Shown: positions 7,108 to 24,162 of the stretch, one piece after another
Position numbering within the stretch: the stretch's first letter is position 1
Layout: each line of letters starts with the position of its first letter
Assembly (NCBI GenBank): GCA_026993525.1
Contig: JALWSS010000079.1
Span: 1 to 64,000, forward strand
Length of the DNA: 64,000 nucleotides
From: Saprospiraceae bacterium
GTDB taxonomy: Bacteria > Bacteroidota > Bacteroidia > Chitinophagales > Saprospiraceae
Reading direction: 5' to 3'
Made by a program: the position numbers and the translations under genes
The notes under the pieces: generated by a model
Told to the model about the DNA's origin: nothing
Database searches by the model: none
What the model saw: only the letters and a program-made list of their open reading frames with translations

Positions 7108-8211
7108 TCAAATCAGAAATTCCCCGTTTTTATAAATCAATTCTCCGTCGGCAAAAATTTCGCCTCCGTTTTTCATGTCCGTGATCATGTCCCAATGGAT
7201 TGGGGATTCGTTTTTCCCACCTGCCTGGAGGTAGGATTGGCCAATGGCCATGTGAACCGTACCGCCGATTTTTTCGTCAAAAAGGATGTTTTTGGTGAAT
7301 CGGTCAATCTGGTAATTGGTGCCGATGGCAGCCTCTCCAAAACGTCTGGCTCCTGGCAGTTTGAACACTTCATCGAGCAGCTCCTGCCCTCGTTCAGCTT
7401 GCCATTTCTCCACATAACCATCTTTTATCCAGAGAGTTATGCCCTCAACCATGTGCCCGGCATACACCACCGGATAGTTGAAATGAACCTTGCCATTTAC
7501 GCTGTCTTCAACCGGCGAAGTGTACACCTCCCCGGATGGCATGTTGGTGCGGCCATCCGAATTGATCCAGGTGCGTCCTTTGCAGGAGAAAGTCACCTCT
7601 ACGTTGGGGCCGGCGTACTTCACCTCTGAGCAGGCATTCAGACGATCGACGATGCGCTGTTGGTTTTTGCGCACATTGATCCAGGCTTCCATCGGATTAT
7701 GCTCAAACAACTTGCAGGCATTGAACACAAAGTGCTGATATTCTTCGAGTGACATGCCAGCTTCCTGTGCATTTGCTAACGTAGGATACTGGCAAAGGTT
7801 ACGTTTCAAAGAGCGGGTTGCAGTTCTTTCAAAATAGGTCTTTGAGATGGGTTTCAACGCTTCCCTTCGCTTGTTGGCCTTCGTCTGATCCACGTTTTGT
7901 TCCTCCCGAAGATTGAACGGTGCCCGGATATTGATGAAAGCATCAAATTCTTCCATGGCCTTTTTGTACAACACAGGCACATATCCCAGCTGCTCCTCGT
8001 TGGCTTCTTTCAGAAATATCCGACCCTGTTCGCGGAAAGTCAGGCTTACTTCTACCAGGCCCCCAACCTGCAGCGCCTCTCGGTAAATCTCCCTCACCAG
8101 TGGCTCTGCCAGTGTGGTGGTCGAAACATAAAGGCGTTCTCCCTTTTGCAACTCTACACAGTAATGAACGAGTAATTGAGCGTATTTGGAAAGTAATGAG
8201 CGGTGGGGCAT
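7108..8211 (-). CDS. M29-family metallo-aminopeptidase
   Basis: A cytoplasmic aminopeptidase of the AmpS/AmpT type, about 367 residues. C-terminal motifs typical of the two-metal site are present: NMPSGEVYTSP (Glu), GHMVEGITLW, TVHMAIGQSY (His and Tyr) and IHWDMITDM (His and Asp). I place the start at ATG 8211, which gives the usual short lead before LLSKYAQLLVHYC; an ATG at 8232 is also possible. It is divergent from the cyclase-family gene at 8403, with a 190-bp shared upstream region. Confidence 0.9.
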   Translation of the reverse strand: MPHRSLLSKYAQLLVHYCVELQKGERLYVSTTTLAEPLVREIYREALQVGGLVEVSLTFREQGRIFLKEANEEQLGYVPVLYKKAMEEFDAFINIRAPFNLREEQNVDQTKANKRREALKPISKTYFERTATRSLKRNLCQYPTLANAQEAGMSLEEYQHFVFNACKLFEHNPMEAWINVRKNQQRIVDRLNACSEVKYAGPNVEVTFSCKGRTWINSDGRTNMPSGEVYTSPVEDSVNGKVHFNYPVVYAGHMVEGITLWIKDGYVEKWQAERGQELLDEVFKLPGARRFGEAAIGTNYQIDRFTKNILFDEKIGGTVHMAIGQSYLQAGGKNESPIHWDMITDMKNGGEIFADGELIYKNGEFLI

Positions 8212-12942: not shown

Positions 12943-13038
12943 GATCCCGGGATCTACCCCTCTAAACCCCTCCAAACCCCTCTAAACCTCCCGATCCCGT
13001 CCCGGGATAACCCCCTCCAAACCCCCGCCACCTTTTAT
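12943..13038. repeat. 10-bp-period pyrimidine repeat, locus B, with a palindrome
   Basis: CCCCTCTAAA, CCCCTCCAAA and CCCCTCTAAA run in tandem at 12957-12986, and a further CCCCTCCAAACCCC lies at about 13011-13025. A perfect palindrome GATCCCGGGATC precedes them (12943-12954), and CCGATCCCG recurs at 12991. This is the same repeat family as 360-410 and 23505-23539. The 343-bp gap 12798-13140 otherwise holds only the repressor operator. Confidence 0.6.
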
Positions 13039-19205: not shown

Positions 19206-21947
19206 ATGAAGCTCTATTTCGGACTTGAATTCGATGAACAAACCTTGCCCGCCTTTCACGAAGCGGCAAAAGATGTGCTCAGGTGTGGCAGAAAAACCCT
19301 GCTCAAAACACTGGAAGCCCACCTTGGACTGGCCGGAAATTTTGAGGGCTACGAGTACCTCAGGGTTGAACATTACAGGCAATTGCTGTTGAACTACGCG
19401 GACAGCCACCCGGATGTTTTCTTCGCAAAATCACTGGATGCGGACCAATTTGCAACGGCATCTGCCTTGCTGAAACGGCGGGATGAACTCCTGCTGGCCG
19501 GATGGAACTTCTCCGCCGATGCCAAAACCCCGCACAGGTTGCGTGTTTTTGCGGAACTGGAGTCAGAAGCAAAAAAATCCGACCTGTCCGGGTTCACCCT
19601 TTCTACAGGTTATGCCGATCGCTTCGCAAGGGTGTTGGTCAGGCTGGGCCAAAGGGTTCATCCTTTTGAGGAGATTTGCTTGCATGAGCCTTTTGACCTG
19701 CTGCCGGTACCTTTTCAACGGTTGCTCACAAAACTGTCGGAAACTTGCCACAAACCCCGGATCCGCCAATTGTGGAACCCAAAAGAAGAAATAACAGGAA
19801 CCACAGACCTGGAGGTGTTCAAATCGGTTCTGTTTGCCGAAGGAAAACAGAAAAAAAGCAAGGCCAGGGCCGATGGCAGCCTGATCATCCTCAGAAACAA
19901 AAGGGCAACCGAAGCCGCTGTTTTTGTGGCCAAACTGCTGAGGCAAAATGAGCACTTCCGGCCTGCATTGCTCATTCCGGAAAAAAACCTGCTGCTGGAG
20001 ACCGCCCTGGTACAGGAAGGATTGCCCAGCCTGGGCATGCAAGCCAACTCCATGGCCAGGCCCACCTTGCAGTTGCTCAAATTGGCCACTGCCTTTCTTT
20101 GGGAACCGATAGACCCCTTTAAGATACTGGAGTTTGTGACCATGCCATTGAATCCACTACCCGACCAACTGACCAACACCCTTGCACGGCAATTGTCGAA
20201 GAAACCCGGTATCAACAACGAAAGCTGGAACAGAACGGTGGGGCAGTTCTTTTCGGAACTGGAAGAGGAACAGCCTGAAACAGCAAAAAAAACAAGGGCG
20301 AACTACAGGTTCTGGTTTGAGCGCCAACGATACGACGCCGGCAAAATGGCACCCAAAGAAGATGCCGTTGAAATCTACAGAGAATTGCACCGCTGGGCAC
20401 TGTACGCTTTTGAGGAGGATGGGGAGCGCTACCCCTCACTGCAAGTGCTTTCTCAACAAAGCAAAAGAATCGTTGACTTGCTGGAAGCCTTGCCCGAACA
20501 ATGGCTGACCCAACTCGATCTCGAGCGCATCGTCAGAACATTGGCCGAACCGGCACCCGTCATGTTTTTGCCGAGGCAGGCAAACCATGTGCCTTATGTC
20601 AACCACGCAGCGGCCATAGCAGGAAAGCTGGACCGTGTGCTGTGGTGGAATTTCATTCAATATGAGTCGCCCCATTTTTTTTCAAGATGGTACGCCGATG
20701 AAAAGAACTGGCTGGAGGCGGCAAACGTCATTACCGATGAACCATCCAAAGAAAATGACCTTCGCCTCTGGCAACAAATGCGCCCGGTGGTAGCTGCGCA
20801 AAAGCAGTTGCTGTTGGTAATGCCCGAATCAATCAATGGGCGGGAAGTACAGGCACACCCGCTTTTTGCCGACCTGCAGGCTGCCTTTGACGACATCGGG
20901 CCTTTGGTATTCGACATTGATTCTTTTGAAAATCCGGAACTGCTCAGCAAGCATTATGCTATACCGCAAAAAGTTGCTTTTGCGCTGAATCCGCTCCCGG
21001 CTCCCAGACCCTTCATCCGGTTCAGCAACACCGGAACCATAAAAAGGGAAAGGGAATCATTCTCCAGCCTCGAAGCCCTCTTGTACCGCCCGTACATCTG
21101 GTTTTTTCGTCACAAACTGGGCCTGCGGCCCTCTCCCATTCAAAGCGTCATTCCGGAGTTCACCCTGAAGGGCAACCTTGCCCACAGGATATTTGAAAAC
21201 CTGCTGAAACAAGACATTTACAAATTGTCGAAAGAAGAGACGGAGCAGTGGGTTGAAGAAGCCTATCGCCGGTTGCTGTTGCGGGAGGGCGTCACCATGC
21301 TGATGTATGGAAAAGAACCTGACCGGGTAGCATTTGGGAACCAGCTGAAGACCGCTGCCTGGAGCCTCATCAACGCTTTGAAAGCCGACAATTGGAAAGT
21401 AACAGCTACCGAAATGGAACTGGAAGGGGCCTTTCCGGCTGAGGGTAAAACAAACCGGGTTTTGCTGACGGGTATCGCAGATCTGGTTTTGGAGAAAGGA
21501 CCCGAAAAAGCCGTTGTGGACATCAAGCTGAGGGGTTCGGGAAAAAGGCGCAGCATGATCAAAAATGATGAAGACCTCCAGTTGGTGCTGTATGCCCATC
21601 TGCTTTCGCAAAACAGCGGCTATTGGCCCCAAACCGCCTATTTCATTGTGGACAAGGCTCAGCTGATTGCCCGCACCAAAGACGCTTTCAGCCAGGCCGA
21701 TGCTGTAAGGCCGGATAGCGAACACGCTGCAACTTATCAGGCCATTATGCAAAAAATGGAAAAGACCTGGCATTGGCGACTGGAGCAACTTGAAAGCGGC
21801 ATGATTGAAGTGCGATGCAGCGAAACAGCCCCTGTGATTGAAGAACAATACACCAGCGAGGGCGTCAACATGTTGGAACTACTGGAACCGGGGGAGGCCG
21901 ATGCGAAGTACGACGACTACCGGACATTGATCGGATTGGTTCAATAG
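19206..21947 (+). CDS. AddB-like PD-(D/E)XK nuclease protein, without Fe-S cysteines
   Basis: A 913-residue protein of the AddB/RexB type: a large N-terminal inactivated-helicase region and a C-terminal PD-(D/E)XK nuclease. The nuclease core reads LTGIADLVLEKGPEKAVVDIKL then EDLQLVLYAHLL (acidic residues near 758 and 772, Lys 774, Gln-x3-Tyr). No Walker A is evident. The cysteine that starts the AddB iron-sulfur cluster (normally LE-x4-CPF) is replaced: the segment reads SLEALLYRPYIWFF, and no C-terminal Cys cluster exists. No AddA/UvrD-type helicase gene is adjacent. A role in double-strand-end processing is inferred. Confidence 0.85.
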   Translation: MKLYFGLEFDEQTLPAFHEAAKDVLRCGRKTLLKTLEAHLGLAGNFEGYEYLRVEHYRQLLLNYADSHPDVFFAKSLDADQFATASALLKRRDELLLAGWNFSADAKTPHRLRVFAELESEAKKSDLSGFTLSTGYADRFARVLVRLGQRVHPFEEICLHEPFDLLPVPFQRLLTKLSETCHKPRIRQLWNPKEEITGTTDLEVFKSVLFAEGKQKKSKARADGSLIILRNKRATEAAVFVAKLLRQNEHFRPALLIPEKNLLLETALVQEGLPSLGMQANSMARPTLQLLKLATAFLWEPIDPFKILEFVTMPLNPLPDQLTNTLARQLSKKPGINNESWNRTVGQFFSELEEEQPETAKKTRANYRFWFERQRYDAGKMAPKEDAVEIYRELHRWALYAFEEDGERYPSLQVLSQQSKRIVDLLEALPEQWLTQLDLERIVRTLAEPAPVMFLPRQANHVPYVNHAAAIAGKLDRVLWWNFIQYESPHFFSRWYADEKNWLEAANVITDEPSKENDLRLWQQMRPVVAAQKQLLLVMPESINGREVQAHPLFADLQAAFDDIGPLVFDIDSFENPELLSKHYAIPQKVAFALNPLPAPRPFIRFSNTGTIKRERESFSSLEALLYRPYIWFFRHKLGLRPSPIQSVIPEFTLKGNLAHRIFENLLKQDIYKLSKEETEQWVEEAYRRLLLREGVTMLMYGKEPDRVAFGNQLKTAAWSLINALKADNWKVTATEMELEGAFPAEGKTNRVLLTGIADLVLEKGPEKAVVDIKLRGSGKRRSMIKNDEDLQLVLYAHLLSQNSGYWPQTAYFIVDKAQLIARTKDAFSQADAVRPDSEHAATYQAIMQKMEKTWHWRLEQLESGMIEVRCSETAPVIEEQYTSEGVNMLELLEPGEADAKYDDYRTLIGLVQ

Positions 21948-21962
21948 CGAACCGCCAAATGC

Positions 21963-22000
21963 GAAAAGAGGCCGATCCATTCAGAAATCGGCCTCTTTTC
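21963..22000. terminator. Bidirectional terminator
   Basis: GAAAAGAGGCCGAT (21963-21976) pairs perfectly with ATCGGCCTCTTTTC (21987-22000) around a 10-nt loop. It serves the AddB-like gene (plus) and the secreted-protein gene ending at 22023 (minus). Confidence 0.8.
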
Positions 22001-22022: not shown

Positions 22023-22730
22023 TTAGCCTTCAAAAGCCGTCAGTTGCGTGGAACCTTGAAGTTTTCCCCTTTTGTCATAGGTTTCTGATTTCACCATTCC
22101 CACACCAACGGCGAACCAGGTAACGGTTTTGTACTTTTTGGTCACCAACATTTTCATTTCTGTGGTTTGGCTAAACTTTATGCATTCAAACGTTCCTGCC
22201 GGTGTGGTAATGGTTTCGGTGCCTTCCACTTTCCGGTTTGTAACCTTCTGTCGGATGGTCATGATCTTAACCCCGCCACTCATCGCTTTGATCTCCAGTT
22301 GCGCATCCGGCAATTCCATGCCAGGGGTCAGGTTGGAGGGAATTTGCAGGGCATCCCCCGACACCTCAATTTCCATTCCCGAAAGGTTTTCGCTGACAGA
22401 AGGATCAAGCATGAAGTTCATGTCAAGCCTGACGACTTCACCGTCGCACTCAAATGCGAAACTGGATTTGGAAAGTTCTTTCTCATCGCTGTCCAGAATA
22501 TCAACAGAGACCCAGGCCTTGTAACCGTTGGCGGTGGGCTCCACTTCCGAAATGGTGTGGCGGTTGATGCCGGTCACCCTGCCCTTCTTGTCGTAATTGG
22601 TCAGCTCATAAAACACATCTTCTTTAAAGGGCATGTAGGCTGACTCACAACTGGATTGGGCGGCAAGTTCAGATTGGAGCAAAATTGAAAAGGACAAGAT
22701 ACCACAGAGGGCTACAAAGAAATTCTTCAT
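22023..22730 (-). CDS. Secreted protein, DUF3108/TapB-like
   Basis: A 235-residue exported protein. A signal peptide (about residues 1-24, MKNFFVALCGILSF then LAAQ) decides the start at ATG 22730. The mature part is beta-rich and resembles the TapB/DUF3108 group: YELTNYDKKGRVTG near the start, TTPAGTFECIKF in the middle and GVGMVKSETYDKRGKL near the end. These are periplasmic or surface proteins of unclear function. Monocistronic, with a shared terminator downstream. Confidence 0.8.
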   Translation of the reverse strand: MKNFFVALCGILSFSILLQSELAAQSSCESAYMPFKEDVFYELTNYDKKGRVTGINRHTISEVEPTANGYKAWVSVDILDSDEKELSKSSFAFECDGEVVRLDMNFMLDPSVSENLSGMEIEVSGDALQIPSNLTPGMELPDAQLEIKAMSGGVKIMTIRQKVTNRKVEGTETITTPAGTFECIKFSQTTEMKMLVTKKYKTVTWFAVGVGMVKSETYDKRGKLQGSTQLTAFEG

Positions 22731-23366
22731 GATGGTGATTTTATTAAAAAATGGAGACCAGCAAGGCTTAAGTACAAATTCCTGCCCGGTAGGAAAGGAA
22801 CTGCAATAAAAGAAAAGTTGTGCCAAAGCAAAAAGCAAATGGGAAAAGCCCGACGAAGGATCAGAGGGGGGGTGGTCAGGCTTTTCCACAACTTGCGCAA
22901 TGCTGTTTTCTGAAAAACCGGGGAAACGCCGCCTTGAGGATTAATTCGGTTTTGGGATAGACGTCGCAGGCGGTCGTTCCCACCGGGCTGGATAACTTTG
23001 AGGTGGAATGACGAAATACTTTTTCGCGGATGGAGCCAGTGAGCATCGAATGACCAATGACCCGGCATTGCTGCGGTACAGACTTATTCTCTGGAATGTA
23101 TCATGGGATGGATAATGCCTGATACGGGAACCCGGGGCAAAGGTTTTGTGAAGAAGAAAAAATTTGAAAAATCTACATCTGTCCACAGCTACGAGGCCGA
23201 CCCAAAAACACTCCATCAGAGAAAAAGCCTTCGGAACCATCTACCTGGCATCACCAAACTTCTACCATCCATTGCGAGTGGCAGACAAATTTTGCGGGGC
23301 CAAAGCCCATTGAACATCTTTGCAACTGTAATAATCGTTTTTCTGTATTTCTTAGCGAATGAATGT

Positions 23367-23403
23367 AAATGGAGGACGCTGAACGCAGCGCCCTCCATTT
23401 TTT
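23367..23403 (+). terminator. Strong rho-independent terminator with no upstream gene
   Basis: AAATGGAGG (23367-23375) pairs with CCTCCATTT (23392-23400). Inside, after one mismatch, CGCTG pairs with CGCAG-type CAGCG around AACG. T-rich sequence (TTTTTTATTT counting the stem end) follows on the plus strand only. Total stem is 14 pairs. Confidence 0.85.
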
Positions 23404-23504
23404 ATTTCCCTACCTCCTCCGGGCTTACTTCCTAATTTTCCGGCACAAGCCCCGGAACCGAGTCCCCTGCAATAAAATGGTTCATCCCAACTTGTATTCA
23501 GGAT

Positions 23505-23539
23505 AAACCTCCCTAAACCTCTCTAAACCTCTCTAAACC
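23505..23539. repeat. 10-bp-period pyrimidine repeat, locus C
   Basis: AAACCTCCCT, AAACCTCTCT and AAACCTCTCT run in tandem, followed by a partial AAACC. The array ends 8 bp before the riboflavin synthase ATG, so it would be in the leader or promoter of that gene. Same family as 360-410 and 12957-13030. Confidence 0.65.
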
Positions 23540-23547
23540 AACTTCCT

Positions 23548-24162
23548 ATGTTCACCGGTATCATAGAATCCTTTGGCAGTGTCAAAAAAATCCGGCAAGA
23601 TGGAGACAACCTCCATTTCACCATTGCCTCTGGCATTTCCGACCAACTGAAAATTGACCAGAGCGTGGCCCACAACGGGGTGTGCCTCACTGTGGTTCAA
23701 ACCAGCCCCGGCACTCACACCGTTACTGCCATTTCAGAAACCCTGAAGCGATCAAACCTGGGCACGCTCGTGACCGGAAGCCTCGTCAACCTGGAACGCG
23801 CCATGAGGCCGGACACCCGACTCGATGGTCACATCGTTCAGGGCCACGTTGATACGGTGGGCACCTGCACGGGCATTCAGCAACTGGACGGAAGCTGGCT
23901 ATTCAGCTTTGAGTATCCGCTTACGCCTGAAAGATTGTTGGTTGACAAGGGTTCCGTCTGTGTCAATGGAGTCAGCCTGACAGTGGTATCTCCTTCGGAA
24001 AATGGAGCGCGAGGAACCTTTAGTGTTGCCATCATTCCGTACACCTACGAACACACCAATTTTCACCAATTGCAAATCGGCTCGATCGTCAACCTCGAAT
24101 TTGATGTGATCGGAAAGTACGTTTCAAAATACATGCAGGTCTTTGGCAAAGGCGGGAGATGA
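23548..24162 (+). CDS. ribE: Riboflavin synthase, alpha subunit
   Basis: A 204-residue enzyme that converts two molecules of 6,7-dimethyl-8-ribityllumazine into riboflavin. Two lumazine-binding repeats are clear: MFTGIIESFGSV with HNGVCLTV in the first half, and RLDGHIVQGHVD with VNGVSLTVVS in the second. It is a single gene here, not in a rib operon. Its stop abuts the convergent outer-membrane gene with no gap. Confidence 0.96.
   Translation: MFTGIIESFGSVKKIRQDGDNLHFTIASGISDQLKIDQSVAHNGVCLTVVQTSPGTHTVTAISETLKRSNLGTLVTGSLVNLERAMRPDTRLDGHIVQGHVDTVGTCTGIQQLDGSWLFSFEYPLTPERLLVDKGSVCVNGVSLTVVSPSENGARGTFSVAIIPYTYEHTNFHQLQIGSIVNLEFDVIGKYVSKYMQVFGKGGR

Follow-up and report, generated by a model that had tools for sequence, protein, structure and literature searches.

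The analysed window, a stretch of 64,000 nucleotides on contig C79 of a Saprospiraceae genome (G000; 5.16 Mb in 230 contigs, 100% complete), carries an intrinsic terminator in the intergenic region ahead of the riboflavin synthase gene ribE (Table 1). The initial annotation had described this terminator as one without a gene to terminate and had proposed a non-coding transcript at 22950-23403. As it had stated, the plus-strand gene upstream stops at 21947 and is followed by a hairpin of its own, and no credible plus-strand open reading frame was seen after that point; a DUF3108-like gene lies there on the minus strand. The latter sits between the terminator region and the upstream neighbour that is usual in most relatives.

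The hairpin (23367-23400) consists of nine and five pairs, 14 in all, with one A.C mismatch between them and an AACG loop, and is followed by a U tract that runs to about 23403. Folded alone, it has an energy of -21.3 kcal/mol (z = -6.75), a value equalled by none of 200 shuffled sequences. On the minus strand, ACATTCATTC and not a T run comes after the hairpin, so the terminator works rightward only, and the earlier description of it is confirmed. A simple promoter and terminator scan of the window called neither a promoter nor a terminator at 23367-23403, the terminator probably being missed because of the A.C mismatch. The Rfam 15 covariance search of the window gave only five tRNAs above the gathering thresholds, and at a permissive setting three weak matches of 15.6-19.8 bits against thresholds of 56-77; 6S RNA, the FMN riboswitch and the other families gave no match, in line with the earlier remark that no known structural RNA could be recognised.

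Table 1. Features of the locus and of related loci in other genomes (positions are those of the window unless a genome and contig are named).
Feature	Position	Strand	Basis or remark
Plus-strand gene upstream	end 21947	+	own hairpin at about 21960-22000
DUF3108-like gene	22023-22730	-	191.7 bits
Upstream conserved blocks (probable promoter and regulator sites)	23239-23337: 23239-23244, 23260-23265, 23280-23289, 23319-23322 (TTTG)	+	alignments of 14 loci, entropies
Invariant block TTTTTCTGTATTTCTTAGCGAAT, 23 nt	23338-23360	+	putative 5' seed, possibly with promoter end
Leader-pairing stretch	23342-23367	+	predicted to pair with G000:C48, about 17-40 nt 5' of the start codon at 7604
Predicted small RNA, about 60 nt	23344-23403	+	start from onset of invariance and reach of pairing; end from terminator
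Intrinsic terminator, 14 pairs with A.C mismatch, U tract	23367-23403	+	fold and alignment; hairpin and U tract retained in G142 with other sequence
Riboflavin synthase ribE	23548-24162	+	downstream of the element
Serine palmitoyltransferase, G142 cluster			672.8 bits, cut-off 640
Phosphoinositol-dihydroceramide-synthase-like protein, G142 cluster			354.9 bits, cut-off 480
Acyltransferase-like ORF and SDR, G142 cluster			ORF without NCBIfam match
Candidate site near siroheme-synthase-like gene end	L157 G008:C71, L173 G007:C16, L205 G012:C106		upstream of cysH-like gene

We searched G000 and 99 relatives, 100 genomes in all, at the DNA level with 22732-23545 as the query. The terminator stretch was matched in 12 of the 13 relatives of the same genus, in 11 of them over 66-88 nt with 84-97% identity and in the twelfth, the closest relative G004, within a longer match of 77%; most of 22950-23230 is conserved only in G004. 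For comparison, the riboflavin synthase is mostly 65-70% identical across the genus (81% in the closest relative). In the alignment, invariance begins abruptly at 23338 and runs to the terminator, whose sequence varies among the 13 genomes in the loop and by the replacement of G-C with G-U pairs. The 23-nt block at the start of this region is identical in all but one of the 13 genus genomes with the element (block plus terminator), the exception being G012 with two differences, and occurs once in G000 even when up to three mismatches are allowed. The fourteenth genome, G013, is 78% complete, and neither the element nor ribE was found in it; G006 has two copies, both at contig ends, which are probably one locus.

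A covariance model of the element (R1) agrees with the DNA search on the distribution within the genus. The model's effective sequence number, 1.49, is low and the matches below the true ones are ordinary terminators, so its weak matches were discarded: one in G013 (E = 0.004; an ordinary terminator), additional ones in G007, G008, G010 and G012, and those in G233, G110, G272, G159 and G258. When the 23-mer was relaxed to up to three mismatches, copies appeared in 25 of 398 genomes of the family. We examined 13 of these copies in context, namely 12 from other genera and a second match in G004; among them the only true copy outside the genus is that of G142, and the second G004 match (contig C61) is the leader of the target gene discussed below, not a copy of the element. 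When 84,980 species genomes were scanned for the exact 21-mer, 13 stretches or records were found, a number from which those of G000 itself may be omitted and to which G012, differing from the 21-mer, does not contribute; the named ones are MAGs under the labels Saprospiraceae, Saprospirales or Bacteroidetes/Bacteroidota.

Such a single, highly conserved copy per genome could also be expected of a recombination site such as dif. A dif site is expected family-wide; the block is limited to one genus and one other genome's genus, with the 13 records of the exact scan, and the GC skew is uninformative, fluctuating only slightly in the window and in G007:C56. This explanation also leaves the leader complementarity described below without a cause, and we give it practically no weight.

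Upstream of the invariant block, alignment of 14 loci and column entropies revealed short conserved blocks at near-constant spacing (TTCTAC, ATCTAC, GGTATAT and TTNG), of which the GGTATAT block is diverged in G000. They are probably promoter and regulator sites. The region could also be read as encoding a small protein, or the last part of one, with the terminator closing its mRNA: several genomes have an NYRFSVFLSE-stop frame just 5' of the terminator, and the upstream block allows an FYxxxPIIY-like reading. Against this, the three codon phases of the upstream block do not differ in entropy (0.88, 0.84 and 0.87 bits), G009 has a stop within that block, the start is inconsistent, indels occur in G012 and G002, and the 23-nt block is nearly free of synonymous change. 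We consider coding very improbable.

The copy in G142, a genome of another genus, has the identical 23-nt block, a terminator hairpin of different sequence and an unrelated position. The gene before it is SDR-like and closes a cluster; the gene after it is convergent, and no riboflavin synthase lies downstream. The cluster after which it directly lies (C113, L144) is of the sphingolipid type. A 5' hairpin, UGUAUUU/GAAUGUA, also fits G142 well; we treat it as weak evidence, because the changes found in it are only transitions or an insertion.

The G142 context bears on the idea that the terminator lies within a leader and attenuates the downstream riboflavin synthase gene in a riboswitch-like manner. 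In 12 of the 13 element-bearing genus genomes, those with a long enough contig, ribE indeed follows on the same strand. In G142, however, the same block with another terminator stands at an unrelated place before a convergent gene, so the element is not a riboflavin-synthase leader. Moreover, neither an FMN riboswitch nor any other Rfam family was matched, and the ribE leaders of 13 genomes do not pair with the block (-7.9 to -14.2 kcal/mol). An FMN riboswitch or ribE attenuator was rejected on the G142 context, and the chance left to this explanation is very slight.

A search of the 14 genus genomes for the complement of the block found it repeatedly 5' of one gene, which encodes a pyridoxal phosphate (PLP) enzyme and lies on another contig (C48) in G000. 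We calculated the duplex energy of each genome's own block with its own leader (-110 to +20) and with 1000 dinucleotide shuffles of that leader. In G000 the duplex has -26.3 kcal/mol, and none of 1000 shuffled leaders equals it. The values for the other genomes are -33.6 (G003), -33.2 (G001), -33.2 (G013, scored with the sequence of G003), -34.0 (G006), -33.8 (G005), -33.6 (G011), -30.2 (G012), -28.5 (G008), -26.5 (G004), -22.3 (G010), -19.6 (G002), -11.1 (G009) and -10.4 kcal/mol (G007). In six of the 14 genomes the duplex extends to about 22 contiguous base pairs (about -33 kcal/mol); the best-pairing genomes are related and hence not independent. The leader beats 1000 of 1000 shuffles in ten genomes and at least 996 in 12, counts that are not blind, because the leader was first spotted by looking for the complement; equal or better shuffles numbered 3 in G010, 4 in G002, 498 in G007 and 397 in G009.

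As a control, 328 other leaders (from G007:C56 and the window) average -11.6 kcal/mol with a standard deviation of 2.8 and a best value of -20.7. Among 727 leaders in 1.07 Mb of G000, a set that takes in the contig carrying the target, the target ranks first, and the runner-up has -24.1 kcal/mol. The best of 15 paralogue leaders scored out of 16 (L203 was left out) has -20.2 kcal/mol, and the 13 of the L188-L200 group range from -6.3 to -15.7. The reversed block gives -8.8 to -16.8 kcal/mol with the 14 target leaders.

Six genomes (G003, G001, G013, G006, G005 and G011) deviate from the perfect complement over the first 21 nt of the site only by A-to-G changes, which give G.U pairs. In G008 and G012, pairing spans a one-base deletion, and in G010 a shifted part of the block pairs over a bulge. 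G007 and G009 keep the block and have no leader site. The enzyme alone thus does not account for the invariance of the block, and the list of targets is incomplete.

The site is preceded by TATCTTTG or a variant, the predicted -7 box of Bacteroidota; for F. psychrophilum, a TAnnTTTG box at -12 to -5 is given in PMC9723704. This position puts the site at or near the expected 5' end of the target mRNA. The start of the site is separated from that end by no more than about 3 nt in G003, G001, G004 and G000, and lies about 17 nt into the expected mRNA in G006, G005 and G011. The predicted duplex begins about 47 nt and ends about 17 nt before the start codon, which is left free. In the phylum Bacteroidota, Shine-Dalgarno sequences are little used. 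If the RNA does pair there, at a leader's very 5' end or close to it, a specific question of translation control would become testable.

A block shared by two loci may also be a DNA operator, with one transcription factor binding TTCTTAGCGAA close to the start of each, in opposite orientations, and no RNA-RNA pairing. The shared sequence does include a TTC-N5-GAA half-palindrome, and at the enzyme gene it comes right behind the -7 box, a place suited to a repressor. The match of about 22 nt is far longer than the palindrome, however, and an operator gives no reason for the exclusively G.U-compatible changes in the first 21 nt in six genomes, nor for the strong pairing that persists where G008 and G012 lose one core base and G010 shifts. 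It also leaves the conserved terminator right behind the block unexplained. We regard an operator as improbable, though less so than the readings rejected above.

The explanation that we favour, with fairly high confidence, is that of a trans-encoded, base-pairing small RNA transcribed from a free-standing gene. It combines a rho-independent terminator at the 3' end (13 genus genomes and G142), a conserved, mostly unpaired putative seed, and a complementary site in the orthologous mRNA, encoded elsewhere, in 12 of the 14 genomes. In the fold of a 61-nt form of the RNA, the invariant block is unpaired. Very probably, as far as sequence can tell, the locus makes a non-coding RNA of about 60 nt that ends at the terminator. 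The predicted 5' end near 23344 is uncertain by several nucleotides, since the promoter poorly fits the housekeeping consensus as enriched in the genus; leader pairing extends to 23342-23343 in G000 and G004.

The non-coding transcript suggested by the initial annotation is thus supported by nucleotide-level conservation without codon structure, but its extent of about 450 nt does not hold, the RNA being predicted as far shorter. Conservation in relatives, which the initial annotation had named as a check, is seen in the terminator and the 23-nt block of 13 of 14 genus genomes, and a conserved protein frame, which it had named as counter-evidence, is absent, with no codon phase and with indels.

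In the mechanism we propose, transcription would start from a promoter upstream of about 23344, probably under regulators acting at 23239-23290, and would stop at the terminator. Judging by the complementarity, the unpaired 5' part of the RNA would pair in the cell with the first nucleotides of the PLP-enzyme mRNA. The duplex would most likely lower expression, either because loading of the 30S subunit is hindered or, given its length, through RNase III; alternatively, it could shield the mRNA 5' end. Our guess leans modestly towards repression rather than stabilisation.

The target gene is present in all 14 genomes, its product being 80-97% identical to the query protein (that of G003). The best NCBIfam model is cysteate synthase CapA (NF053679), with 514.7 bits in G000 and 500.1 in G003 against a curated cut-off of 600, followed by cystathionine beta-synthase (410.7, cut-off 510) and cysteine synthase A (335.5, cut-off 387). 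The protein thus stays below every curated NCBIfam cut-off, and we go no further than calling it a cysteate/cysteine-synthase-like PLP enzyme.

For further targets, we inspected the occurrences of two 11-mers. The first, CATTCGCTAAG, occurs at 31 places, of which 14 are copies of the element and the other 17 were inspected; the second occurs at 32 places and added ten to be inspected. In G008 (-23.9 kcal/mol) and G007 (-22.9), and more weakly in G012 (-19.3), the RNA could form up to 14 contiguous pairs with a site close to where a siroheme-synthase-like gene ends. With the gene names assigned by eye, this locus and the adjoining cysH-like gene (Table 1) are a possible second sulfur target; the site stays a candidate only, because it is inside a coding sequence. 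The CysM leader of G007 was dropped because of imperfect pairing (-20.2 kcal/mol). In one genome only (G008:C71, about 20834, L218), TTCGCTAAGAA directly follows a promoter-like AACTTTGC, 111 nt 5' of a desaturase-like ORF.

The RNA would be a new family of a known sort of small RNA. It would work like GibS of Bacteroides thetaiotaomicron, described in PMC7366714 as an sRNA of Bacteroidota encoded in trans, whose conserved and largely unstructured 5' part serves as an extended seed for metabolic mRNAs. GibS pairs around the start codons of sugar-metabolism mRNAs, whereas the Saprospiraceae RNA would pair upstream of the start codon, at the mRNA 5' end or close to it, over up to about 22 contiguous pairs. 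Rfp18 of Flavobacterium psychrophilum is likewise independent, intergenic and conserved within a genus of the Bacteroidota, with predicted mRNA targets, but it is strongly folded and pairs through its third stem-loop with metalloprotease mRNAs (PMC9723704). MasB of B. thetaiotaomicron, a narrowly conserved intergenic sRNA whose gene is activated by a transcription factor, represses one mRNA by pairing near its 5' region (PMC10994844); it is about 100 nt long, and its pairing site lies in the coding sequence of an mRNA for a tetratricopeptide protein. Antisense control of sulfur amino acid metabolism has a precedent in an RNA whose gene lies in antisense direction at the 3' end of the operon that it targets and which is a riboswitch, whereas the present RNA is encoded on C79, its putative target on C48, and no riboswitch family was matched.

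Trans-encoded Bacteroidota sRNAs with a known target are few; GibS was termed the first in 2020 (PMC7366714). Our literature search, with most subscription papers outside its reach, found no report of a Saprospiraceae small RNA or a Bacteroides cysteine-synthase sRNA like this one, and its listings on Bacteroidetes terminator sRNAs, cysK, sulfur assimilation and sulfonolipid sRNA showed none of this RNA. The proposed sRNA-target pair can be read from DNA alone, brings its own evolutionary test in the form of wobbles, bulges and two losses, and is testable in an E. coli two-plasmid reporter without culture of the host. A bolder version, which we offer tentatively and think rather unlikely, is a new family in which the unpaired 5' half matches, over its entire length and almost perfectly, the complement of the 5' end of one mRNA encoded far away, a dedicated long-duplex regulator that may control the entry of sulfur into sulfonolipids. 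The sulfonolipid idea stems from the best model of the target, cysteate synthase, and from the position of the G142 element after a sphingolipid-type cluster.

Between the terminator and ribE, a 10-bp tandem repeat, TAAACCTCTC, is present in 3.6 copies at 23504-23539, immediately 5' of the ribE start codon; 31 further matches to similar repeats occur within G000. Relatives have different short tandem repeats (e.g., CCAACTG) at the corresponding place. A second 10-bp tandem array of a similar kind, ACCCCTCTAA, lies at 12956-12988 of the window with 3.3 copies.
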